A stretch of 64,000 nt of DNA from Lysobacteraceae bacterium NML91-0213 (GTDB lineage: Bacteria; Pseudomonadota; Gammaproteobacteria; Xanthomonadales; Xanthomonadaceae): the NCBI GenBank assembly GCA_002798175.1, contig NWQL01000001.1:94074-158073 (forward strand). The letters run 5' to 3'. The notes under the pieces are model-generated. The model did no database searches and was not told the origin of the DNA. It saw only the letters and a list, made by a program, of their open reading frames with translations. Shown piece after piece: positions 1-11,747 of this stretch (its first letter is position 1; every line of letters starts with the position of its first letter). The translations under genes were made by a program, and so were the position numbers.

Positions 1-64
1 GCACCAGCGCCGACTTCCGCCGGGCCGTCCAACGCTTGATCTCTTCTTCCATCACTTGGCTCAT
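1..64 (-). CDS. IS transposase OrfA, DUF1153/HTH type (5' part only)
   Basis: Only the first 21 codons are in the window; the gene continues past base 1. The peptide starts MSQVMEEEIKRWTARRKSAL. It resembles the N-terminus of the small DNA-binding OrfA (DUF1153-like helix-turn-helix) of IS3-family elements common in Xanthomonadaceae, whose typical start has a K/R-rich 'IKRWTARRKSALVLEI' pattern. An AGGAG-like GGAG lies about 9 bases before the ATG. A DUF1153 regulator that is not part of an IS cannot be excluded, but the abrupt glycosyltransferase truncation next to it favours the IS reading. Confidence 0.6.
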   Translation of the reverse strand, partial: MSQVMEEEIKRWTARRKSALV

Positions 65-112
65 CGTGCTCTCCGAGAAAAGGTAGCACCTGAGCAGGAA
101 ATCACTGGGTCA
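1..112 (-). mobile_element. Edge of an IS3-type insertion sequence
   Basis: The first bases hold the start of a transposase-type OrfA on the minus strand (start codon at 64) together with about 48 bases of leader ending near TGACCCAGTG (read on the minus strand from 112). From 113 onward the plus strand reads as the C-terminus of a glycosyltransferase, so the element boundary is placed at about 112. Only one end of the element lies in the window, so the family, the inverted repeats and the target duplication cannot be confirmed. Confidence 0.6.
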
Positions 113-335
113 TTACATGCCCGTCGTGGCGATGCCCGTTGGGGACCTGCCGGCGCTGTTGGCGCGCGGTGGGGGGTGGGTCGCGGAAGGAGTCGATGCA
201 GAGGAGTTCGTAGAGGCGATCCGTTCGAGTCTCTCCGCATATGGGGCCCTTGCGAATCCGGAGCTTGTCGATGATTTTCAGATTGCGTCCGTTGCCCGCG
301 GCTTCGCACAAGCGGTCCGGATGCTGGAGCCGTGA
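113..335 (+). pseudogene. C-terminal remnant of a group 1 (GT4-type) glycosyltransferase
   Basis: From 113 the plus strand encodes about 74 residues that fit the C-terminal GT-B nucleotide-sugar binding half of GT4 enzymes: 'PVVAMPVGDLPALL', then a GGGWV segment and a DAEEFVEAI helix. Reading further upstream in this frame meets a TAG at 84-86, within the presumed insertion sequence, so the rest of the enzyme is missing. Its TGA overlaps the GTG start of the next gene (GTGA), so the two were once co-translated. Such enzymes transfer sugars in capsule, LPS or exopolysaccharide assembly. The remnant should be inactive, because the acceptor-binding N-terminal half is absent. Confidence 0.65.
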
Positions 336-1183
336 TTGATCTTTCCGATGATCGCTGGAACTCGGCGCTGCAGGTCGGGTTTGGGGCAGATGTCGTGGCC
401 GTGCCGGGCTGTCGGCCTGATGCTGAAATTGCGCGGCTGGTGATCTTCAAACTCGGCCCGCTACGCGTCGGCTATGCGGATTTTGCTGCGGGTGTCGAGA
501 AGTTGGGCGAAGGCTATCAGCGAAGAATGTCAGCCGCCGCCTCGGAAAACGGGGTGGATGTGCTCCGTTACCAAGCGCCATTGCCGGCAGATGCGAGCCC
601 TCGACACGCCAGGTTTGAACTACTTACGACGGTCATTGATGACCTGCAGGGGTGGGATGAGCGGTCTTTCGAGAAACCACGACGAACCGCGAACCGACTC
701 GGGCGAACGGCGTTAGAGGTCAGGAGGGCAGAACCGCGCGATGTTTCAGTGATTCATCGCCTCTACACCGAGACGATAGCGCGCCAAGGAGGGCGGATGC
801 GGTATTCGCGCGAGTACTTCGAGATGATCGCTGGCCCTTCGGCATGGGTTGCCTGCTTAAAGGGAGATGTGATTGCGTTCGTCTCGTCGGGGCGGGCGGG
901 GAATCGCGGCCTCTATCTTCATGGTGGTCACGACGAGCGATTCAGAAGTCACTACCCATCCGATATCCTCTTCCTGGCAATGATCCGAGAGGCGAGGCAA
1001 GCAGGCTTGCGCAGCTTCGATTTCCTCGCGTCTCCGCGTGGACACACAAGTCTGCTCGGCTACAAACAGGCGTGGGGAGGGCGGCCGAGGCCTGTGTGCG
1101 TATCCGACCAGCCCCTCAGTTGGCTCGGGCACAGCTTCTCGCTCGGGTATGCCGTCATGGCTGCATGGACGCGTCGCCGCTAA
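332..1183 (+). CDS. FemAB/GNAT-like acyltransferase (CelD/BcsL type)
   Basis: A 283-residue protein with a GTG start inside the stop of the preceding glycosyltransferase remnant; GGAG lies about 6 bases upstream. The C-terminal half (about residues 130-260) has the acetyltransferase fold signature of FemAB/BioF2-like proteins: a 'RRAEPRDVSVIHRLYTE' helix, a YLHGGHDE strand-turn, 'DILFLAMIREARQAGLRSFD', and the closing 'SLLGYKQAWGG'. Members of this group acylate sugars or peptidoglycan/lipid-linked acceptors and often sit in surface polysaccharide clusters, which suits the glycosyltransferase upstream. The substrate is unknown. Its 3' end overlaps the convergent oxidoreductase by 29 bases. 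GC is clearly lower than in the housekeeping genes further right. Confidence 0.7.
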   Translation: MIDLSDDRWNSALQVGFGADVVAVPGCRPDAEIARLVIFKLGPLRVGYADFAAGVEKLGEGYQRRMSAAASENGVDVLRYQAPLPADASPRHARFELLTTVIDDLQGWDERSFEKPRRTANRLGRTALEVRRAEPRDVSVIHRLYTETIARQGGRMRYSREYFEMIAGPSAWVACLKGDVIAFVSSGRAGNRGLYLHGGHDERFRSHYPSDILFLAMIREARQAGLRSFDFLASPRGHTSLLGYKQAWGGRPRPVCVSDQPLSWLGHSFSLGYAVMAAWTRRR

Positions 1184-2228
1184 GCTGGATGAGGCGTCTT
1201 GCCAGCCGCTTCGCGTCGAGACGTATACCACGCAGATACCGGCTGCGGTGATCGTGAAGATTGTCGACGCCCAGAAGGAAAACGCCAGGCATTGAGGTTA
1301 CTTCGAAGCGATCTGTCTCGGGAGCGCCGCCCGCATCGAGATGCGGATCGAATCCGTCGAGTGCAAGACTCAGGGCGTATCCAGTGGCAAGGACGACCGC
1401 GGCAGCTTTCTTCGACGTGCCGTCAGCGAACTCGACTGTGCCGACGTGGATGCGACTGATTGGAGGTAGCAACGCAACTGTTCCCGCTTCTACCAGTTTC
1501 CGGTTCCTGCCGCCCTCCATGACGGGGTAAGAGTTGCGCCGGAGGCCGGGGTTCAAGGCAGCTTCAATCTCCTCCCAGACGTAGTACGCCATCTCACGTA
1601 GCCAGGCAAGGACGCCGTGGCGACGAAACTGGATGCTCGAGCGGATGCTCAACGCCGCCGGGATATTCCGGTCATTCAGCGCGAGGATGGTCTGACCCGC
1701 AGTGACTCTGCGGCCCACCACGATGACCGGCAGGTCACCCTTACGCAGGGATGCCAGGCTGTCATACGTTCTGATTTCCGCGGCGTGCATCACCACGAGA
1801 CTTCCGTCGCTTTCGAAGTCGGGACTAGGCCGGGATGGATTCGAAAAATAGCCAGTCGCCACGACAACCGCGCGGAAGGGGCCGTGCACCAGTCCGTTGG
1901 TGTAAAGCTCCCACTGGCCATCCGGAAGGCGATGCAAGCCAGTCACTTTCGTCCACTCGACGACCTTGCCCTTGAGGCGAGCCGCGGTGCGCTCGAGATG
2001 CCGCAGGTAGGTCTCGGACGGCACCTTGGATAACGGACTCTGGCGCAACAGGTCTCTCGCTGTGAGCACGTTGGTCCACCATGGGCTGAGTACCTTGAGG
2101 TCACGAGGAACGGACCGCCACGTCGAACCGACGCGGTCCTGCTCGAATATCGTGTAGGTCGTATTCTTGCGGTCCAAAGCCGTGCCTAGCGCGATTCCCG
2201 CGGGGCCTGCACCGATGATCGCGATCAC
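1155..2228 (-). CDS. FAD-dependent oxidoreductase, flavin monooxygenase-like
   Basis: A 357-residue protein beginning (GTG) with a Rossmann dinucleotide motif, IAIIGAGPAGIALG, for FAD. A second motif region (VIVVGRRVTAGQT, about residue 168) probably binds NADPH, and an ATG motif (AVVLATGY) lies near residue 300; this is the layout of FMO/thioredoxin-reductase-like monooxygenases. The second motif is degenerate (GRRVTAG rather than GxGxxG). The GTG start overlaps the TGA of the methyltransferase upstream, so this is the last gene of a minus-strand operon. It may hydroxylate or oxidise a small molecule or sugar-linked group made by the neighbouring aminotransferase and methyltransferase; the substrate is not predictable. 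A longer in-frame start would run into the methyltransferase and was rejected. Confidence 0.75.
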   Translation of the reverse strand: MIAIIGAGPAGIALGTALDRKNTTYTIFEQDRVGSTWRSVPRDLKVLSPWWTNVLTARDLLRQSPLSKVPSETYLRHLERTAARLKGKVVEWTKVTGLHRLPDGQWELYTNGLVHGPFRAVVVATGYFSNPSRPSPDFESDGSLVVMHAAEIRTYDSLASLRKGDLPVIVVGRRVTAGQTILALNDRNIPAALSIRSSIQFRRHGVLAWLREMAYYVWEEIEAALNPGLRRNSYPVMEGGRNRKLVEAGTVALLPPISRIHVGTVEFADGTSKKAAAVVLATGYALSLALDGFDPHLDAGGAPETDRFEVTSMPGVFLLGVDNLHDHRSRYLRGIRLDAKRLARRLIQLSGDASMQP

Positions 2229-2974
2229 GCGACGCCTTCGAACGCGACTTCTGCGTAATCGCCCGGAAGGATTCCAAAAATGCGTCCACTGGCGCGTTCG
2301 GCCGTGCGCAAGGACTGCCATGCGCTCCTCGGAATCAATCCTATCCTGATGAGGGATGTGGCGGGGAATCGGCCGCTCCTGATCGGCCGTGCCTTTAGCT
2401 CGCTGAAGCCAGCTGCGGCCATGAGCTCGGTCCACGCGCCGATCGTCCTATGAACCTTCATTCCATCCTCTACGATGTGCCTGCGCCGACGACACTGTTC
2501 GATAGCCACGATCCGTGCGCCAGGCTTGAGTGCGCTCCGAATTGCTTTCAGTAGCGCGAGTACCTTGTCATCGCTGACGACATAGCTGAGAACGACATAG
2601 ATGACTGCTGCATCAAACGCACCCTTGGCGACAGGGAGTATGTGCCCGTCCATGGCCGCGAACAGGCTACGCTCAGGATCGCATCGTTGGCGTGCATGCT
2701 TGAGAAGCGAAAGCGCGAGATCCACGCCGATCACCCGGTACCCGTGCTGTAAGAGTGCCAGCGTGGCACTGCCCGTTCCGCAGCCGAAATCCAGAATTAG
2801 GCCTGATTGGTCGACCTTCCCGGCGAGCGCGGATGTCAGCACCTCATCACGTATACCCGCGATGTACGCATTCTTGTCGCCCCGCGAGTCTCTCGGATCA
2901 ATGACCGAGGTCTCGGGTGCGAGGTCGGCGAGGCCGTTCCAATACACGCGCTGGCGATTCTTTTCAGCATCCAT
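2225..2974 (-). CDS. Class I SAM-dependent methyltransferase
   Basis: A 249-residue protein with a clear SAM-binding motif I, LILDFGCGTGSATLAL (about residues 60-75). An acidic end of strand beta2 (VIGVDLALSLL), motif II (GAFDAAVIYVVLSYV) and a post-motif 'ALKPGARIVAIEQ' segment follow, as in the Methyltransf_11/25 families. It overlaps the flippase-like gene upstream by 11 bases and the oxidoreductase downstream by 4, so all are probably co-translated. The acceptor is unknown; in this context a nucleotide sugar, lipid-linked sugar or pilin-linked glycan is plausible. Similarity to ubiquinone-type methyltransferases is only at the fold level. Confidence 0.75.
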   Translation of the reverse strand: MDAEKNRQRVYWNGLADLAPETSVIDPRDSRGDKNAYIAGIRDEVLTSALAGKVDQSGLILDFGCGTGSATLALLQHGYRVIGVDLALSLLKHARQRCDPERSLFAAMDGHILPVAKGAFDAAVIYVVLSYVVSDDKVLALLKAIRSALKPGARIVAIEQCRRRRHIVEDGMKVHRTIGAWTELMAAAGFSELKARPIRSGRFPATSLIRIGLIPRSAWQSLRTAERASGRIFGILPGDYAEVAFEGVA

Positions 2975-3917
2975 GTCGACGGACCTTGTTGAATACGGTC
3001 GCGAGGAGTGCCGCCACGATCTCGGCAGCGATCATGAGCAGGCGGAGCATCGTCGCAGAGACGATGAGGAGCGCGGGATGCGCGCCGGCGAGCGTGGACG
3101 CGCCGGAGACGAATATGGCCTCGCGCACGGCCAAGCCGGCCGGCACGACGAAGGCGGCCAGTGACAGGATGGATGCAGCGCTATACCAGGCCCCAAGCAG
3201 GATGGCCTGTGCTGCGGATAGGAGGCCGTCATGAAGCAACACGAAAGCAGGGAAATAGAACACCCACTCCGAAGCCAGCAACGCGGTCGACTTCCATCGG
3301 TCTGGCTTGCTAAGGGTCAGAAGTGCCGGGATCCCGAATCGTGGTGCCCTGCGAGCCAGCCACTTGATTGGTGCATCCCTGGTCTGGGGGTGGCGATGGA
3401 TCAGCTCGACCAGCGCCAAGCCGACGATGATCGTCACAAGGCTGGAGGGGCCGAGGTGTGAGATGCCGAGGATGCCTGCAAGTACCGATACTGCGAGCAG
3501 GTTGGTCAGCAGCATCTGCCACAGGTTAGCGACGACGACCGCTCCAGGGGCATGCGAGCCATCCACGCGTCGACTTTGATAGACGATGCCCCAGATCTTG
3601 CCCGGCAGATACCGGACGAGCTGGGCTTGGAGGTACGTCTCGGTGAGGTAGGCGAGCGACGAATCTGCACGCCCGAACTGCCTCAGCAGACGGGCGTGAT
3701 AAAGCGCCTTCAGCATGAACATTGGTATGAGGCACGCTGTCGCCGCGAGAACGAGGGCGAGATCGAACCTACGCGCTGACGCGGCGATCGCTGCGCCTTG
3801 GTCCTTCAGCATCCAAGTCAAGTAGGCGGTCGCTGTAACCATCAGCCCCCAGGACAACAGGCGTCTGGTCGCTGGCCCCACACCCGGCTTGCCGCGAGTA
3901 ATCGGTGCTCGATCCAT
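2964..3917 (-). CDS. Flippase-like multi-spanning membrane protein (LPG synthase TM/AglD family)
   Basis: A 317-residue integral membrane protein with about eight hydrophobic segments (for example near residues 22-40, 48-68, 120-145, 160-180 and 230-300). Features of the lysylphosphatidylglycerol synthase TM / UPF0104 (AglD-like) family are visible: an 'R-Y-L-P-G-K-I-W' motif after the second to third helix, a conserved Glu in a central helix, and 'VPAGLAVREAIFV' near the C-terminus. Family members have been proposed to act on polyprenyl-linked sugars or to flip lipids. The ATG chosen at 3917 shares one base with the aminotransferase stop (TGATG). It sits between an aminotransferase and a methyltransferase in one operon, which suggests handling of a lipid-linked product. 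Confidence 0.7.
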   Translation of the reverse strand: MDRAPITRGKPGVGPATRRLLSWGLMVTATAYLTWMLKDQGAAIAASARRFDLALVLAATACLIPMFMLKALYHARLLRQFGRADSSLAYLTETYLQAQLVRYLPGKIWGIVYQSRRVDGSHAPGAVVVANLWQMLLTNLLAVSVLAGILGISHLGPSSLVTIIVGLALVELIHRHPQTRDAPIKWLARRAPRFGIPALLTLSKPDRWKSTALLASEWVFYFPAFVLLHDGLLSAAQAILLGAWYSAASILSLAAFVVPAGLAVREAIFVSGASTLAGAHPALLIVSATMLRLLMIAAEIVAALLATVFNKVRRHGC

Positions 3918-5077
3918 CAGAGAGACGTAATCACCGAGCGGACCGCCTCGATCACCCTCTCCACGTCGTGCTCGGACAGTTTGGGTGAGATTGGCAAGCT
4001 GACGGTCTGGTGGCCGATACGTGCGGCGTGGGGCCAACGCTCGGGAGTCCACCCAAAGTGTTGCTGATACACCGGATGCTCCGGCAGGGACACGTAGTGC
4101 ACGCCAATGCCGACACCGCACGCGGTCATCGCGTCGAGGAAATCATCGCGAGTGATGCCGGCACGTTCCTCGTCAATCATTACCGTGTAGAGATGGTGGG
4201 CGTGTCGGGTGCCTTCCTCCGGAGGCGCAGGTAGGCCCAGCGGCAGGTCCGCGAAGGCTTCGTTATAGCGGCGCCAGATGACCTCACGCCGGGCCCAGCT
4301 CCGCTCGACGCGTGCGAGCTGGTGCAGGCCGATTGCGGCTTGAAGATCCATCATGTTGTATTTGAATCCGAACTCCACCACCTGATAGTGCCGGTAGCCG
4401 GAATCGCTGAAACGATGCCAGGCGTCCTTGCTCATGCCGTGGAGGGCAAGCACCTTGGCGCGGGAGATCAGCGCCTCGTCGCTTGCGATGATCATTCCGC
4501 CTTCGCCGGTCGCGACGTTCTTCGTGGAGTAGAAGCTGAAGCAGCCGATGTCGCCGAACGTACCGGCTTTGCGCCCCCTGTACTCGGTCTCGATGGCATG
4601 GGCGCAGTCCTCGATCACCATCAGGCCGTGGCGACCCGCGATCTGTATGATGCGGTCCATGTCACAGGGCCGACCTGCGAAATGGACGGGAAGGATCGCA
4701 CTGGTGCGCGGCGTGATCGCGGCCTCGATCGCAGCCGGGTCGATGCACTGGGTGACCGGATCCACGTCCGCGAGTACCGGGGTCAGGCCGGCATGGATGA
4801 TCGCGTTAGCCGTGGCGCAGAACGTCAGTGGCGTCGTAATGACCTCACTGCCGGGCTCGAGGTTGGCGGCCACCATGCCGACGTGCAGCGCAGCGGTGCA
4901 GGAGTTCAGCGCTGCCGCGTGCGTACTTGCCAGCCCCTTGTAGCGGGCGAAGTCGCTTTCGAACCGCGCCACGCGGGGGCCTGTGCCCAGCCAGCCCGAG
5001 CGCAGGCAGGCTTCGACTTCCTCGATTTCGGCGTCCTGGATCTGCGGTGCGCCGAAGGTGATGAAGTCGGTCGTCAT
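3917..5077 (-). CDS. DegT/DnrJ/EryC1/StrS-family PLP aminotransferase
   Basis: A 386-residue enzyme. The family hallmarks are in order: the substrate loop 'SGWLGTGP' near residue 28, 'NSCTAALH' near 58, 'VIEDCAHA' (about 154-161, PLP ring contact) and the Schiff-base lysine in 'FYSTKN' (about K186) followed by GEGGM. These enzymes aminate keto sugars of nucleotide sugars (for example dTDP- or UDP-4-keto hexoses) for LPS, O-antigen or glycoprotein glycans. The ATG overlaps the TGA of the upstream GT-C gene (ATGA). No sugar dehydratase or epimerase is present in the window, so its keto-sugar substrate must come from elsewhere. Confidence 0.88.
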   Translation of the reverse strand: MTTDFITFGAPQIQDAEIEEVEACLRSGWLGTGPRVARFESDFARYKGLASTHAAALNSCTAALHVGMVAANLEPGSEVITTPLTFCATANAIIHAGLTPVLADVDPVTQCIDPAAIEAAITPRTSAILPVHFAGRPCDMDRIIQIAGRHGLMVIEDCAHAIETEYRGRKAGTFGDIGCFSFYSTKNVATGEGGMIIASDEALISRAKVLALHGMSKDAWHRFSDSGYRHYQVVEFGFKYNMMDLQAAIGLHQLARVERSWARREVIWRRYNEAFADLPLGLPAPPEEGTRHAHHLYTVMIDEERAGITRDDFLDAMTACGVGIGVHYVSLPEHPVYQQHFGWTPERWPHAARIGHQTVSLPISPKLSEHDVERVIEAVRSVITSL

Positions 5078-7041
5078 GGGCTGGAGCGCTCTGTCTGCAG
5101 TGAGGAGGGTAGGGGTGGCGCTGCGCACGTCTCCAACCGGGCCCGGATAGCGGCGAGATCCCCAGTATAGGTACCGGCCCGGTTCGCTTCGCGAACCGCT
5201 TGTACCAGCGACTCCACCTCGGACCCTGCACCTGGCTTGCAGGCCAGGAAGCGGGCAAGGTTGGCCTTGAACTGCGGATCCGTCGGCGCGAGTGCGACGG
5301 CCTCGCGCATCATCGCGGTGCCCAGTTCGGGGTCCTGCAATACGGTGTAGGCGAAGGTCGCGTAGATCGAATGTAAGCGCGCGGAATCGGGATTGCGTCC
5401 GAGCGCGGCAATGAACGTCTCGAACAGCGCCTGCGCATCGAGCGGGCACTGTTCGAGCTGCCGGCAGTTGGCCAGCTGCCAGAGCGCGCCCTCGGACTCG
5501 GGCGTCATCATGTACTCGGTGTACTTGTTTTGCAGCCGCGGCCAGATGTCACCCGGGAGTGGCGTGCCGTCGCGAGCGTGCATGATGATGAGCGCCTGTT
5601 CCGGCAGCGGTGAACGTCCGCCCAGCCGGGCAGCATGCAGGAACTCCTGCCGGGCCAGGCTCCAGCTCGGCAGCTGCGTATCGCCGCGACTCTGTTCGAA
5701 CAGCAGGCGTCCCAGTGCGTAGGAGGCCCGCGCAGACTCGATGTTGCGGCTTGCAAGTGCGGTCGCTAGCCGCGTGGGCTCGGCCCAGGTCATCACCTGC
5801 AGCGTGGTCAGGGCGATCGTGGCCGCAATGACCACCGCCACCATGGTGATGCGGGCATCGAGATGCACATGGCGCAGGGCGCGCGCACTGCCGTCGGCGA
5901 GGGCTAGCAGCACTCCAAGCAACGCCAGGTAGTTGCGGTGTTCGAAGGCGATCTCCAGCGGCACGACATTGCTGGTGAGCAGATGCCCAACGAAGAACCA
6001 CGCGATTCCCAGCGCAGCCAGTGGGTAGCGCGTCCTGTAGCGCAGGGCAAAGGCGGCGAGGGCGGCAATCAGGGTCCACGCGCCCAGCGTCCAGGCCGGT
6101 GCCAGTAGCCCACGCGAGAGTGGGAAGTTGTCGTAATAGAACACCAGCCGGTCGGGAACCGGCAGCAGGATCTGGCTGAGGTAGTGCACCAGCACCGGGC
6201 CCTGGGTGAGTACCCGCTGCTGGAGATCGAACTCGCGGAAGTCGTAGCGTCCGGGCGCGGCGTAATGCGGCACCACCACGAACGCGAACACCAGGCAGGC
6301 TGCGATCGCAGCGCCCGCAAACACGGACTTGAGCCAGCGCGCGGCTTGCGTGGGTCCGGCAAACCGCAGCACGCAGACTTCGATGGCCGCGATGAAGGCA
6401 GGTGCAAGCGCCGCGGATTCCTTGAATCCCAGGCCGACGAGCGTGGCCAGGGCCGCGCCCGTGAACCACGTCCAGCTGCGCTGTCCGACGATCTGGCGCT
6501 GTCTGGCCTGCAGGTAAGCCACGCAGGCCAGCAGAATGCCGGTCGTCGCGCCGATTTCCATGCGCTGCACGATGTACAACACCGTGGACACCTGCAGCGG
6601 ATGCACTGCCCACAGCAGCGCGACCGTGGCAGCGAACAGGTCGCGGCCCGGGGCGCTGGCCGTCCGCTCGACGTCCACCGCGTGCAACAGCGCGCGGACC
6701 AGCACGAAGACCAGTACGGCATTGCCGGCATGCATCGCGATGTTGGTCAGCTTCAATGCACGTGCGTCGGGCCCCGCCCGCAGGTGGTCGAGCGCGAACG
6801 AAAGCAGCGCCAGCGGACGCCCGCCGAATCCGGAAAATCCATTACCCAGTGCTTCCTGCAGGCCGTCGAGTGTCAGCGCCGTCAGGCGCCAGTGCGGATC
6901 GCTGACGAGGTTGGGGTAATCGTCGAACAGGAAGCCGCCGCCCAGCCCGGGCATGAACACCGCGAACGACAGCAGGACCAACGCGGCAGCCGAGATCCAG
7001 GGAAGCGCGCGTTGAAAAGCAGATGCAGGCAAGTGGAACAC
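5074..7041 (-). CDS. GT-C type membrane glycosyltransferase with C-terminal TPR region
   Basis: About 655 residues with a GTG start 7 bases after the minor pilin stop. The N-terminal two thirds contain 10-12 hydrophobic helices. The first periplasmic loop carries 'FLFDDYPNL', the paired acidic residues expected of GT-C polyprenyl-phosphate-sugar transferases such as the TMTC/DUF1736 group. 'GRPLALLSFALDH' and an EHRNYLALLG loop follow. The C-terminal third is helical and TPR-like (for example 'YALGRLLFEQS', 'LGTAMMREAVALAPTDPQFKANLARF'). The position directly behind a pilin gene suggests it glycosylates pilin or another exported protein; this is inference. The start is uncertain because no strong ribosome site precedes the GTG. 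Confidence 0.7.
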   Translation of the reverse strand: MFHLPASAFQRALPWISAAALVLLSFAVFMPGLGGGFLFDDYPNLVSDPHWRLTALTLDGLQEALGNGFSGFGGRPLALLSFALDHLRAGPDARALKLTNIAMHAGNAVLVFVLVRALLHAVDVERTASAPGRDLFAATVALLWAVHPLQVSTVLYIVQRMEIGATTGILLACVAYLQARQRQIVGQRSWTWFTGAALATLVGLGFKESAALAPAFIAAIEVCVLRFAGPTQAARWLKSVFAGAAIAACLVFAFVVVPHYAAPGRYDFREFDLQQRVLTQGPVLVHYLSQILLPVPDRLVFYYDNFPLSRGLLAPAWTLGAWTLIAALAAFALRYRTRYPLAALGIAWFFVGHLLTSNVVPLEIAFEHRNYLALLGVLLALADGSARALRHVHLDARITMVAVVIAATIALTTLQVMTWAEPTRLATALASRNIESARASYALGRLLFEQSRGDTQLPSWSLARQEFLHAARLGGRSPLPEQALIIMHARDGTPLPGDIWPRLQNKYTEYMMTPESEGALWQLANCRQLEQCPLDAQALFETFIAALGRNPDSARLHSIYATFAYTVLQDPELGTAMMREAVALAPTDPQFKANLARFLACKPGAGSEVESLVQAVREANRAGTYTGDLAAIRARLETCAAPPLPSSLQTERSSP

Positions 7042-7048
7042 CAGCCGC

Positions 7049-7462
7049 TCAGCGGCACAGGGCGGGACGATACAGCGATGCCATCGTGCGTTCGCACGTC
7101 CAGTGCAGGCTGTTGTCCGAGATCTGCGGCACCAGCACCAGCGCGTGACCGCGGATGCGTGCGCTGGAAGCCGCGGTCGCATAGGCGATGGTGATGCGAC
7201 CGACGCTGCCGACCGAGGTTGCGGACACATAGCGTCCGCTGATTGATGCGGGCGAAGCCAATGGCAGGGCTGCGTGGCCCGTGGGCCAGCTGCCGTGGTC
7301 GGCATGGAATTCGGCCAATGCCGTTTTTACGCCTCCGGCCACCGCCAGCCCTTCCGCCACCTGGCTGCGCGCCACATACACCTGGTAGGCCGGCACGGCG
7401 ATCGCCGCAAGGCTGGCGATGACGATTAGCAGTTCGATCAGGGTAAATCCCCGTGGATGCAT
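7049..7462 (-). CDS. Type IV pilin, second (minor or variant) copy
   Basis: A 137-residue prepilin. It has a very short leader ending in Gly (MHPRG), then the mature start [20 protein letters not shown] with the conserved Glu5, the target of PilD peptidase and methylation. The rest follows the pilA upstream closely ([13 protein letters not shown]..., '[10 protein letters not shown]', C-terminal Cys pair with 'CERT' and 'ALCR' forming the D-loop), but the body is shorter and more diverged, consistent with duplication. The leader is followed by a membrane helix that is less classical than in PilA ([11 protein letters not shown] against [14 protein letters not shown]). An unusual run of seven G lies just before the ATG. 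It is the first gene of the tight minus-strand operon 7462-1155. Confidence 0.88.
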
Positions 7463-7475
7463 GTCGCCCCCCCGC
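7463..7475 (-). promoter_or_regulatory. Ribosome-binding region made of a seven-G homopolymer
   Basis: Immediately upstream of the minor pilin ATG the minus strand reads GTCGCGGGGGGGCGAC. The G run is the only Shine-Dalgarno-like element, and the flanks GTCGC/GCGAC can pair. Slippage in this run would change the spacing to the start codon. Confidence 0.4.
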
Positions 7476-7536
7476 GACAGGATGGCCGCTCGAGAGCGCG
7501 GCCGGACGCGGCATTGCCGCCCCGCAGAACGAATGA

Positions 7537-7555
7537 GGGCCGCACGCGGCGGCCC
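7537..7555 (-). terminator. Hairpin between pilA and the second pilin
   Basis: Arms GGGCCGC and GCGGCCC (7-bp stem, 5-base loop) lie just downstream of the pilA stop. On the minus strand they are followed by TCATTCGTTC, a poor T tract. It may be a partial terminator that lets some transcription into the pilin-modification operon. Confidence 0.4.
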
Positions 7556-7579
7556 CCATTCCCTGAACATCAGCGCTGA

Positions 7580-8011
7580 TTAGCGGCAGCTGCTCGGCAG
7601 GTACTTCGCTTCCATGCCGGCGCCAGCTGCACAGGCCCACTCGATGCTGCCGCCGCGATCGGTCGGGGACAGCGCGAGGCTGCCACCGCGAACCTTGGCG
7701 CTAGTAGCGGTCTTGGCGTAGGCAACAGTGATAACGCCGTTGGCGATGGTTGTCCCCGAAACATACTTGCCGGTGATAGAGCCGGCAGGAGAAACCCCTG
7801 CTGCCGCGTTGTTGGCAGGATATGCACCGTGGTTGGCGTAATACTCAGCAACCGCGGTCTTCGCCCCGGCGGACAGGCTCATACCTTCCGACACCTGCGA
7901 GCGGGCCACGTAGTCCTGGTAGGCCGGCAGCGCGATGGCGGCCAGGATGGCGATGATCGCGACGACGATCATCAGTTCGATCAGCGTGAAGCCCTTCTGC
8001 ATCTTCTTCAT
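7580..8011 (-). CDS. pilA: Type IV major pilin PilA
   Basis: A 143-residue prepilin with a short basic leader MKKMQKG cut before [20 protein letters not shown], containing the invariant Glu5 needed for PilD processing and assembly. A '[19 protein letters not shown]' helix follows, then a beta region and two C-terminal cysteines (WACAAG... and PSSCR) forming the disulfide-bounded D-region. This is the structural subunit of the pilus fibre in the inner membrane and extracellular filament. A sigma-54 promoter lies about 100 bases upstream, and the PilS/PilR genes lie 2.1 kb away. The assembly ATPase PilB, platform PilC and peptidase PilD, usually next to pilA in this family, are not in the window. 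Confidence 0.93.
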
Positions 8012-8108
8012 GGTGTATCCCCTAGGAGTGATTGAAGCCACGTGCCGGTGGTCGGCGGGTGCCGGGTCCGTTGGCAGCCGTGCGACACCGCACGTGCCCT
8101 TGAGTAAC

Positions 8109-8123
8109 GCATGTTGCGTGCCA
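8109..8123 (-). promoter_or_regulatory. Sigma-54 (-24/-12) promoter for pilA
   Basis: The minus strand reads TGGCACGCAACATGC, matching TGGCAC-N5-TTGC except for one base before the invariant GC; GG and GC have the correct spacing. The expected start is near 8098, giving an about 87-base leader before the pilA ATG at 8011. PilR, a sigma-54 activator, is encoded nearby. Confidence 0.75.
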
Positions 8124-8211
8124 ACGGGCCACTCCGTGGTCCGGGTCACGGAAGCGAAACCCAAAACTTGAAGCTGCAGCCGTTGTTAGCGTGCGAGAGT
8201 GACGCGCGCGG

Positions 8212-10068
8212 TCAGGTGCGGCATGAAATGTGACCTGATGCGTCACCACTGCTCTCGGGTATAGCAGCGAGGCGGGAGTCGGCCTCTCGGCGTTGCTCAT
8301 CGTTGACGGCCAAGGCTGCTGCGCATGCCCACAGCGCCCGTGCCTGCGAGAGGCGCGCCAGTGCTGCGGCGAGGTCGCCGGCGCGCAACCGGTAGTCGGC
8401 CTGCCGTGGTGCGAGCGCGACCGCGCGCAGTTCCGCCGCAAAGGCGTCCGCGGGCCGGCCCACGCCTTCCAGCGCGAGCCCCAGGTTGTGCCACGCCCCA
8501 TGCAGGTCCGGGCGCTCGGCCACAGTGCGCTCGAGTGAAGTGACCGCGTCCTGCCACCGTGCATCCCGGAGCGCCAGGTAACCCCGCAGTTCGTCCAGGC
8601 CCGGTGTCAGCGGCGCTGTCTGCTCCAGTTCTTCCAGCACCTGCATGGCGCGGGAGTCCTGTCCCGATTTCAGGTAACCCCAGGCCAAACGTTGGGCGTC
8701 GCTGGGAAAAGCAGGCAACAACAGTCGGGCCTGCGACACCGACCATAAAGCCAGCAATGCCGAAATCCCCATGGCTGCAGCCATCGCCCGCCATCGTCGT
8801 TGTTCGGACAGGCGCAGCAACGCATCCAGCCAGATGCCGGCGCCTAGTGCGAACGGGCCGATGACACTGAAGCGGAATCGGTCTTCGGCGAAGAACACCG
8901 CCAGCGTCAGTGCGCCCATCGCCAGCGGGGCCAACACGACCACGGCTCGGCGATCACGCCACAGCAGCAGCGCAATGCCCGGCAGCCCCAGTGCGAACAG
9001 CCAGCCGAAGGGTAACGGCAGGGCGGCAAGCAGGGGCGAGACGATCCGCTCGTCGACGTAATTGCGGGTGTTGGGAACTTCCGGATAGGCGCTGGCCTCG
9101 CGCAGCTTGCGAAGCGCGTTGCCGGCCGATTGCAGAGGGTGAGCCCGCAGATGGGCCAATGCCTCGGCCCGCCAGTAGGCGTCGACCGCCTGCGGCGAAA
9201 GGGCCCGGCCAAGCCGCCTTTCGGCCTCCCGGCGGTAGCCTTCCCAGATCTCGCCAGGAGCGGTGTAGCGACCCACGAAACCGGGAACGCTGGCGCGCGC
9301 CTCTGGATTGCCGGCGTTATAGATCTGGTGCAGCACGATGCCGCCGTTGTTGGGCATCGGCGACCACTTTTCGGAGATCGCGACGTTGCGGGCCACCAGC
9401 AGCAGGATCGGCAGCGCTGCGCCCAGGGCGACGCCACCGCACAGCCTGGCAAGCTCGGCCTCTCGTGCTCCATCGCGCCAGCGCAGCCAGCCCGCGCATC
9501 CCATGGCGAGCGGGATCATCAGCAGCAGGTTGGCCCGCAGGGCCACGCCCAGGCCGCAGAACATGCCCAGCAGGACAGCCGAGCGCAGTCGCGCGCGTGT
9601 CGAAACCTGCAGGACCCCGTACATCCACCAGATGACGAACGCCGCGACCCATGTCGCCTTGAGTAGGGCCATGCTGTAAGCGATCGCGGTGCCGGTCAGG
9701 CCGTAGACGAGCAATGCCAGAAGGCCCGCCCGCGGACGCCCGAACACGCATGCAATCCGGTATAGGCCGAAGGCCGACAGGCAGTCGACCGCAATCTGAA
9801 GCAGGTACAGCGGAAACGCCCCTGCGCCGAGTTTCAGGATTCCGCCGAGCAGATAGCCGTAGAGCGGGTCCATGAACGCGAATTCCTCGCGCAGGCCGCC
9901 GGTGCCGAACGCGACGTCCTGCGCGAAGCGCCAATAGAACTCCTCATCGGCGCCCATCTGCCAGGTCAGCGGGCCGGCCAGGGCGTAGCGCATGTGGATC
10001 AGACGTAGCACGAGCACGACGGCAAGTGCGGCGACGAGGCGTCGCCGCGTATGGAACTGTGCTTGCAT
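8212..10068 (-). CDS. GT39-like membrane glycosyltransferase with C-terminal TPRs
   Basis: A 618-residue protein starting at an ATG preceded by a strong GAGGGGAG ribosome site. The N-terminus has a membrane segment (LVAALAVVLVLRLI) and then a loop 'QMGADEEFYWRFAQDV' with an acidic motif as in dolichyl-/polyprenyl-phosphate-sugar GT-C enzymes (ArnT/PMT-like). About ten further helices reach residue 430. The tail (430-590) holds TPR-type helices, including 'HGAWHNLGLALEGVGRPADAFAAELRAV'. It lies between the pilR and pilA genes and faces the same way as the pilins. A pilin O-glycosylation role is plausible but unproven; the family is diverse. Confidence 0.7.
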   Translation of the reverse strand: MQAQFHTRRRLVAALAVVLVLRLIHMRYALAGPLTWQMGADEEFYWRFAQDVAFGTGGLREEFAFMDPLYGYLLGGILKLGAGAFPLYLLQIAVDCLSAFGLYRIACVFGRPRAGLLALLVYGLTGTAIAYSMALLKATWVAAFVIWWMYGVLQVSTRARLRSAVLLGMFCGLGVALRANLLLMIPLAMGCAGWLRWRDGAREAELARLCGGVALGAALPILLLVARNVAISEKWSPMPNNGGIVLHQIYNAGNPEARASVPGFVGRYTAPGEIWEGYRREAERRLGRALSPQAVDAYWRAEALAHLRAHPLQSAGNALRKLREASAYPEVPNTRNYVDERIVSPLLAALPLPFGWLFALGLPGIALLLWRDRRAVVVLAPLAMGALTLAVFFAEDRFRFSVIGPFALGAGIWLDALLRLSEQRRWRAMAAAMGISALLALWSVSQARLLLPAFPSDAQRLAWGYLKSGQDSRAMQVLEELEQTAPLTPGLDELRGYLALRDARWQDAVTSLERTVAERPDLHGAWHNLGLALEGVGRPADAFAAELRAVALAPRQADYRLRAGDLAAALARLSQARALWACAAALAVNDEQRREADSRLAAIPESSGDASGHISCRT

Positions 10069-10139
10069 CAGGGCTCCCCTCGCCAAATGGCGGACGCGAG
10101 GGTCGCGGCCGTGCTGCGCCTTGTCAAACGCGTGGGGAC

Positions 10140-11585
<1,446 letters not shown>

Positions 11586-11747
11586 CGGGGATCCTCGTTG
11601 GGTTGCCTGGCCGCGATCCATGCGGTTGGGGGAATGGGGATGGGCCGCGCCTGCAGGGGCTCACGCGCCGTGGCGGTGGCGATGTGAGGGCGTCCGCATC
11701 GGTGCGGCGGCGCCGGCTTTTGCCCGCGCAGGTCAATAGGTGACCAA

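Follow-up and report, generated by a model that had tools for sequence, protein, structure and literature searches.

A candidate cassette for pilin glycosylation, carrying a rare tailoring module, between pilR and pilB of a Lysobacteraceae genome

The window analysed here is a stretch of 64,000 nucleotides of Lysobacteraceae bacterium NML91-0213 (G000:C1:94074-158073, where G000 is this 3.24-Mb genome; all coordinates refer to the window unless stated otherwise). Between the pilus genes pilB and pilR lies a gene cluster whose two arms converge, and six minus-strand genes at 1155-7462 make up its minus arm. We propose, with a probability of about 78%, that this cluster is a pilin glycosylation cassette in which a frame of two glycosyltransferases, of the GT2 and GT-C types, is combined with an amino-sugar added by a third glycosyltransferase (GT4) and with an acylating and flipping pair resembling a split MprF. 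The evidence consists of the gene content of the locus, its linkage to pilin and pilB, the predicted folds of the GT-C protein and the flippase, the covariation of the tailoring proteins and the near-constant pairing of GT2 with GT-C. Our confidence is high for the link to pilin and low to moderate for the chemistry, which we infer. An earlier note on this DNA had read the genes as a dedicated pathway loading an amino, methylated and possibly oxidised sugar onto pilin, and linkage and folds support this reading.

The six genes had been described in that note as chained by overlaps of 1-11 bases or a 7-base gap; they were found again at the same coordinates, and the measured spacings agree. The first of them is pilin2 (7049-7462), a type IV pilin matching Pilin PF00114, whose N-terminal helix is three residues short in a comparison of pilin spacing. 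Seven bases past it and on the same strand begins GTC1 (5074-7041; GTG at 7041 adopted as start codon), a GT-C membrane glycosyltransferase with a C-terminal TPR domain and the predicted pilin glycosyltransferase, so that a glycosyltransferase gene stands directly behind a pilin gene. GTC1 overlaps by 4 bases with the gene of a DegT sugar aminotransferase (3917-5077; PF01041, E 3.5e-128), which in turn overlaps by 1 base with FLIP (2964-3917), coding for a flippase-like membrane protein. An overlap of 11 bases leads to MT (2225-2974), a class I S-adenosylmethionine-dependent methyltransferase, and one of 4 bases to FMO (1155-2228; GTG at 2228 adopted), a monooxygenase-like FAD-dependent protein of the Pyr_redox_3 type by family match and alignment. 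Tight overlaps are frequent in bacterial operons and are weak proof alone; the evidence beyond chance is that the gene set is conserved in other genomes.

The boundary of 1155-7462 drawn in the earlier note proved too narrow, because half of the cluster, the facing plus arm up to pilB, lies outside it. To the left of the window pilD, pilC and pilB are followed on the plus strand by GT2, the remnant of a second methyltransferase gene (MT2) and GT4; a plus-strand gene for a FemAB/GNAT-like acyltransferase (PF13480; 332-1183) follows inside the window and overlaps the convergent FMO gene by 29 bases at its end. This facing arm, mostly outside the window, would accordingly supply a GT2 of the polyprenyl-phosphate type, MT2, GT4 and the FemAB-like protein.

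Relatives of FMO were found in 3 of 61 genomes (our own and 60 relatives; E <= 1e-10) and in 6 of 398 genomes of the order (E <= 1e-30), our own being included in both counts. In all six genomes of the order FMO is situated at most 8 kb from pilB. Scanning the public genome collection with peptide patterns, which is not exhaustive, yielded at least 11 FMO loci; four of them are records already met as genomes in the search of the order, and the two counts overlap to that extent. The loci belong to Lysobacter sp. Root690, L. antibioticus, Stenotrophomonas terrae, L. aestuarii, A. composti, Xanthomonadales KatS3mg125, an Arenimonas metagenome-assembled genome (MAG), Pseudoteredinibacter isoporae (Cellvibrionales), a Labilithrix MAG (L099), a Lysobacterales MAG (L100) and HyVt-412 (L101). 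Eight of the 11 contain pilin, GT-C, flippase, MT, FMO, FemAB, GT4, GT2 and pilB all together, including the locus of P. isoporae, which comes from another order and shows a different gene arrangement. Pilin and GT-C share a strand in all eight. DegT was detected in seven of these complete loci (in Root690 a frame of 67 amino acids alone matched) and MT2 in six, L092 and L098 keeping the rest without a detected MT2. For HyVt-412 there is a contig of 7.8 kb that encodes seven of the enzymes but lacks a pilin. Since one genome, G031, has the cluster without FMO, this gene is optional. No FMO relative was found in viral contigs and no pilin2 in phage records. Of the 11 public FMO loci, 8 thus show the set grouped with pilin and pilB, the opposite of what that note had named as undoing the pilin link, namely enzymes always away from pilins and accompanied by O-antigen sets.

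The closest relative of GTC1 (75%) lies beside a pilin in a different setting (L033, genome G020). There, as judged by eye, genes for a GDP-sugar dehydratase and a flippase replace the tailoring set, and the locus looks like the same transferase with another sugar.

Neither the GT-C protein nor the flippase was identified by sequence searches. The sequence profile of GTC1 matched TPR, PPR and other helical proteins among solved structures and gave no glycosyltransferase assignment, and that of FLIP gave no credible match. The predicted folds resolved both: the modelled GTC1 matches OST, PMT and ArnT, as expected of a GT-C membrane protein, and the modelled FLIP matches the flippase domain of MprF. 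The earlier assignments of the two proteins are thereby backed. With 317 amino acids FLIP corresponds to the membrane part only, without the fused aminoacyl-phosphatidylglycerol synthase domain. The flippase candidate of the cassette is thus of the MprF type and not of the MATE or SMR/GtrA type, GtrA- or MATE-type genes elsewhere not having been sought. The profile of the FemAB-like protein matched FemX (6snr, E 1e-6), GNATs (E about 3e-4 to 1e-3) and, weakly, the synthase region of MprF (5vrv, E 0.004; 7f47, E 0.007). The profile of GT2 matched ArnC (9hwj, E 1e-21), DPM1 (5mlz, E 2e-21) and sll0501 (5eke, E 1e-19), and by this homology GT2 is a polyprenyl-phosphate sugar synthase.

The GT2 subfamily occurs in 208 of the 398 genomes of the order, our own included. 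Its position was assessed with 79 GT2 places from the listed rows of these 208 genomes, picked because pilB was mostly also listed; both places could be entered for 76 genomes. GT2 was divergent from pilB and within 5 kb of it in 74 of the 76, with 63 of the gaps between 118 and 449 bases; in the two misses the genes were 25 kb apart and on another contig, respectively. We further inspected 60 GT2 loci (40 consecutive best-scoring new ones of the window's own family and 20 picked by hand from the listed rows of other families). A GT-C relative was present in 58 and a pilin in 53 of them. By comparison DegT orthologues were found in five and GT4 orthologues in three, all three among the DegT-bearing loci; at the score thresholds used there was one strong flippase relative and no FMO, FemAB or MT of the present kind. 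As a control served 15 stretches with pilB and pilR and without a GT2 of at least 400 bits: only one of them (L046) contained a GT-C of at least 200 bits, and another (L074) a GT-C of 42 bits. Stretches with GT-C that do not show GT2 (e.g., L033, L035 and L048) were not judged, as most of them stop short of pilB. GT2 and GT-C, almost always paired in the sampled loci, are the usual frame, of which the six-gene finding is one rare filling. In L081, L093, L103, L105, L109, L112, L118, L120, L123, L138 and L141 pilC was seen beyond the cassette, which there lies between pilB and pilC.

Covariation was calculated from pairwise protein distances, using 8 Lysobacterales loci when the contribution of PilB was removed and 7 loci when those of PilB and PilR were removed. 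After removal of PilB the correlations were 0.92 for FMO-MT (p 0.0005), 0.86 for FLIP-FemAB (0.0015), 0.82 for FMO-FemAB (0.003), 0.79 for MT-FemAB (0.0035), 0.67 for FMO-FLIP (0.0095) and 0.60 for MT-FLIP (0.015). The PilR control was added because the raw correlations with PilR were high; with both proteins removed FMO-MT (0.93, p 0.002), FLIP-FemAB (0.84, 0.0005), FMO-FemAB (0.83, 0.0085) and MT-FemAB (0.76, 0.014) were retained. The FLIP-FemAB pair and the FMO-MT-FemAB trio thus hold beyond PilB and PilR. As FemAB is encoded on the other strand, the effect is not mere co-transcription; recombination of whole blocks would also give such covariation. With GT-C the four proteins showed no covariation, and with GT4 at most 0.33 (8 loci, PilB removed). 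We regard FMO, MT, flippase and FemAB as one tailoring module. In four of the eight further flippase-type loci inspected another enzyme could fill the slot of FemAB: an Asp/Glu racemase with a weak ATP-grasp match (L041), an LAL-type ATP-grasp enzyme with a decarboxylase-like enzyme (L084) and a hexapeptide transferase (L114 and L153). These possible substitutes hint that the amine produced by DegT is acylated.

We envisage the following order of events. GT2, divergent from pilB, would load a common sugar onto polyprenyl phosphate, and DegT would make a 4-amino-4-deoxy sugar nucleotide, perhaps from the product of RmlB; GT4 would join this amino-sugar to the lipid-linked first sugar. The FemAB-like protein could then acylate the amine, possibly with an amino acid, while MT would methylate and FMO oxidise the added group or the sugar. 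The finished lipid-linked glycan would be turned over by the flippase, which in its predicted build resembles the corresponding half of MprF, and finally be transferred by the TPR-bearing GT-C protein to the co-encoded pilin.

The nearest solved relatives of FMO are the small bacterial flavin monooxygenases 4usr, 4usq, 4c5o and 4a9w (E 5e-27 to 2e-26). The N-terminal FAD-binding motif GxGxxG is present (IAIIGAGPAG), with G6, G8 and G11 invariant in all six aligned sequences. The second dinucleotide motif, for NADPH, is changed: GGGNSGAQ of 4usr, 4usq and 4c5o aligns with GRRVTAGQ here and with GKRVSAGQ in relatives. The altered pattern G[KR]R[VI][ST]AGQ occurs in 6/6 aligned relatives, and R174, at a glycine position of the motif, is invariant in all six. 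It is our guess that FMO N-oxidises the amine or the acyl group. Concerning the sugar, ArnB is the closest solved relative of DegT; against the curated families DegT reached 352.7 bits for ArnB (cut-off 631) and 344.3 bits for PseC (cut-off 423.5), and GT2 64.7 for the ArnC equivalog (cut-off 529). RmlB scored above its cut-off in all six genomes examined, five with FMO and one (G031) without, so that dTDP-4-keto-6-deoxyglucose is available; as it did so in 10 of 14 control genomes as well, its presence does not discriminate. No ArnA-type gene was seen in the cluster. Our own genome gave two matches of the formyltransferase type, which are presumably Fmt and PurN; the family used, NF005414, is PRK06988 and not ArnA itself, and bears on ArnA only indirectly.

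On the other side of the six genes lie pilin1, the second GT-C/TPR-type gene GTC2, pilR and pilS. Pilin1 (7580-8011, minus strand), probably the major pilin, sits 117 bases upstream of pilin2. GTC2 (8212-10086, minus strand) codes for a membrane protein with weak matches to PMT_2 and TPR_16 and is possibly a second pilin glycosyltransferase. It is placed between pilin1 and pilR; a relative of 65% identity stands beside a pilin in G020 and a weaker one occurs in L145. The boundary gene pilR (10140-11621, minus strand) has a host-like third-position GC content (GC3) of 0.92.

A sigma-54-type promoter site, TGGCACGCAACATGCG, was found upstream of pilin1 (8108-8123, minus strand) with a score of 13, compared with a best score of 10 for pilin2, each within 220 bases upstream. 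Transcription therefore probably starts before pilin1. The earlier note had placed pilin2 at the head of the operon; it is indeed the first of the six genes, and the head is probably pilin1, which has the better site. Among the sampled loci, 54 of 85 pilin upstream regions scored at least 13, compared with 0.6% of single-base shuffles, and the first pilins of L091, L092 and L096 scored 12. Over the whole window the pattern was not enriched (31 found, 30.3 expected) and is informative solely by its position before pilins. Within 1000-10200 no sigma-70-type promoter was found, and terminator matches were near background (6 compared with 4.6). A hairpin with a 13-bp stem lies 18 bases past the stop codon of pilin1 (7531-7561, minus strand; z -2.6 for a 76-base stretch) and is a possible attenuator. 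Attenuation by a hairpin has been described for pilin cassettes, X. campestris pv. vesicatoria being among those named (PMC11841053).

Several observations weigh against the proposed pathway or parts of it. The linkage is not uniform: L100 has FMO, a lower-scoring DegT and pilB, but its stretch lacks a GT-C of this type, and L099, with an FMO relative of 37%, has no pilin and, within 10 kb, nothing else that strongly matches the cassette, its GT2-type match being weak. Nor is the frame without exceptions, as L046 carries GT-C between pilR and pilB with a GT2 of 78 bits only, and in L047, a stretch without pilB, the GT2 that accompanies GT-C reaches 223 bits. Covariation was tested on 7 or 8 loci; the raw correlation of PilR with FMO and MT (0.81) is as high as that of the flippase (0.80 and 0.75), FMO-FLIP (0.59, p 0.052) and MT-FLIP (0.52, p 0.068) become borderline once PilB and PilR are both removed, and the module shows no covariation with DegT, GT2 or GT-C. 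As to the chemistry, the tie of FemAB to aminoacyl transferases is weak by sequence, and no acylation enzyme was seen in L147, L117, L160 and L037, of which L147 alone has DegT. Lacking the usual second-nucleotide motif, FMO may not be a normal NADPH monooxygenase. DegT is near ArnB and PseC yet below both cut-offs and does not single out one donor sugar. The hairpin behind pilin1 has no T tract and is absent from the list of the terminator scan.

The state of the copy in this genome has to be added to these points. GT4 is interrupted by an insertion sequence, inside which, just left of the window, the assembly has a gap of 21 N. The N-terminal piece of the gene is a frame at G000:C1:93016-93975 and the C-terminal piece lies at 117-335 (plus strand), tblastn of intact relatives splitting at the insertion. 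The end of the inserted copy occupies 1-112 (minus strand, the bound at 112 set by eye), with a reading frame MSQVMEEEIKRW... starting at 64 and running downward; its transposase-type tail, beyond the gap, recurs at four other places of the genome with 96-100% identity. MT2 is a remnant of about 320 bases, compared with about 700 in relatives. In pilin2 the proline is at position 19, the sole such case: it is at 22 in 130 of 131 scorable copies (136 sampled, 5 without the proline dropped, a few genomes entering twice under two locus ids). The deletion of three helix residues may cause abnormal assembly.

We considered three alternatives. The first, a serious possibility to which we give somewhat less than an even chance, is that the cassette of this genome was acquired as an island, is in decay and lacks full function, so that pilin1 and perhaps GT-C alone still matter. 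The interrupted GT4, the shortened MT2 and the pilin2 helix would fit, as would base composition: GC3 is 0.65-0.81 for the minus-strand cassette genes and FemAB (0.65 for FemAB), versus a mean of 0.88 (sd 0.06) for 29 genes of the rest of the window, a background pre-filtered for strong coding bias, which raises it; pilB, pilC and pilD have values of 0.86-0.91. Moreover, in the genomes with the closest PilB relatives, G018 (95% identity) and G017 (96% over residues 149-572), the interval from pilR to pilB showed a pilin and no detected cassette gene, suggesting an island acquired in our genome or lost in the other two. On the other hand, the frames of DegT, GT-C, flippase, MT, FMO, FemAB and GT2 are open, and L092 and L098 keep the remaining genes without a detected MT2 as well. 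The pathway of this genome may thus be partly dead while complete relatives exist; as the GT4 step looks broken here, Stenotrophomonas terrae or Lysobacter antibioticus would be the better place to look for a functioning one.

The second alternative, which we consider unlikely, differs in the order of steps: as in the Arn pathway, GT2 itself would load the amino-sugar made by DegT onto polyprenyl phosphate and GT-C would move a single decorated sugar, leaving GT4 a side role. The best solved relatives are indeed ArnB for DegT and, with DPM1 close behind, ArnC for GT2; the fold matches of GT-C include ArnT, and with GT4 broken the remaining genes could still yield such a product. Yet a GT2 present in 208 of 398 genomes and accompanied by DegT in only 5 of 60 sampled loci more likely uses a common sugar, all three GT4 orthologues track DegT orthologues, the ArnB and ArnC scores are far under the cut-offs, and the genome gave only the two formyltransferase-type matches, of an indirect family. 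The Arn pathway as a whole was therefore demoted to a rival. Third, it is very improbable that the cassette decorates lipopolysaccharide or exopolysaccharide and is merely parked at the pilus locus: DegT, GT4, MT and GT-C enzymes do serve O-antigen and exopolysaccharide pathways too, but GT-C begins 7 bases behind pilin2, 8 of 11 FMO loci, one of them from another order, keep the set together with pilin and pilB, and no Wzy or initiating phosphoglycosyltransferase was noticed in the maps of the FMO loci, no profile search having been aimed at them.

If pilin glycosylation is the function of the cassette, about half of a bacterial order would possess a standing, exchangeable pilin glycosylation site, and an MprF-type flippase would work in a glycan pathway together with an FMO of altered cofactor site. 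Type IV pili serve phages as receptors and the cell itself in adhesion and twitching. In relatives the same spot is occupied by related cassettes in which parts are exchanged, and this may be a way to vary the pilus surface. A bolder proposal, which we consider doubtful, is that flippase and FemAB represent an MprF that has been split and put to a new use: the amine of a lipid-linked amino-sugar would receive an aminoacyl group, which would be methylated and N-oxidised by the co-evolving MT and by an FMO devoid of the usual NADPH motif, flipped and shown on type IV pilin, and the socket on the pilB side with its fixed GT2 and GT-C would swap such modules across Lysobacterales, as O-antigens change elsewhere, plausibly under the pressure of pilus-binding phages.

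Among the open-access matches listed, none had a title or abstract opening that dealt with a locus for pilin glycosylation in this order. The pilin-accessory cassettes TfpO and TfpW of P. aeruginosa likewise have an accessory glycosyltransferase gene after the pilin gene; there a terminator hairpin lies between the two, of which the hairpin behind pilin1 is a possible counterpart, and their glycans evade pilus-specific phages (PMC11841053). Whereas those glycans are described as O-antigen units or D-arabinofuranose (PMC11841053), donor synthesis, tailoring, flippase and transfer are co-encoded here; the comparison is one of gene arrangement and described products. TfpW itself is GT-C-like. The viosamine island of P. 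syringae also uses an aminotransferase, an acetyltransferase and a methyltransferase to make a modified 4-amino sugar for a surface appendage; its target is flagellin, and no monooxygenase is named in the passages considered (PMC3927599). We know of no lipid carrier in that system.

The three-component GtrA/GtrB/Gtr system, exemplified by the pentofuranose system of Citrobacter, also combines a polyprenyl-phosphate donor synthase, a flippase and a GT-C. There the acceptor is the O-antigen and the flippases are of the MATE or SMR type (PMC11127046), whereas the present cassette has a flippase of predicted MprF fold together with GT4, DegT, MT, FMO and FemAB. If the proposed reading is right, it would make it possible to test which flippase such a system uses, flipping there being said to lack direct evidence (PMC11127046). 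With MprF, the lysyl-phosphatidylglycerol synthase/flippase, the cassette would share the fold of the flippase domain; it differs in having two separate convergent genes in a glycan cluster, the substrate presumably being a lipid-linked sugar. The Arn pathway for L-Ara4N resembles it in the ArnB-like DegT, the ArnC-like GT2 and the predicted ArnT-like fold of GT-C, while scores below the equivalog cut-offs, a cluster without a visible ArnA-type gene, the extra GT4 and the tailoring genes set the two apart.

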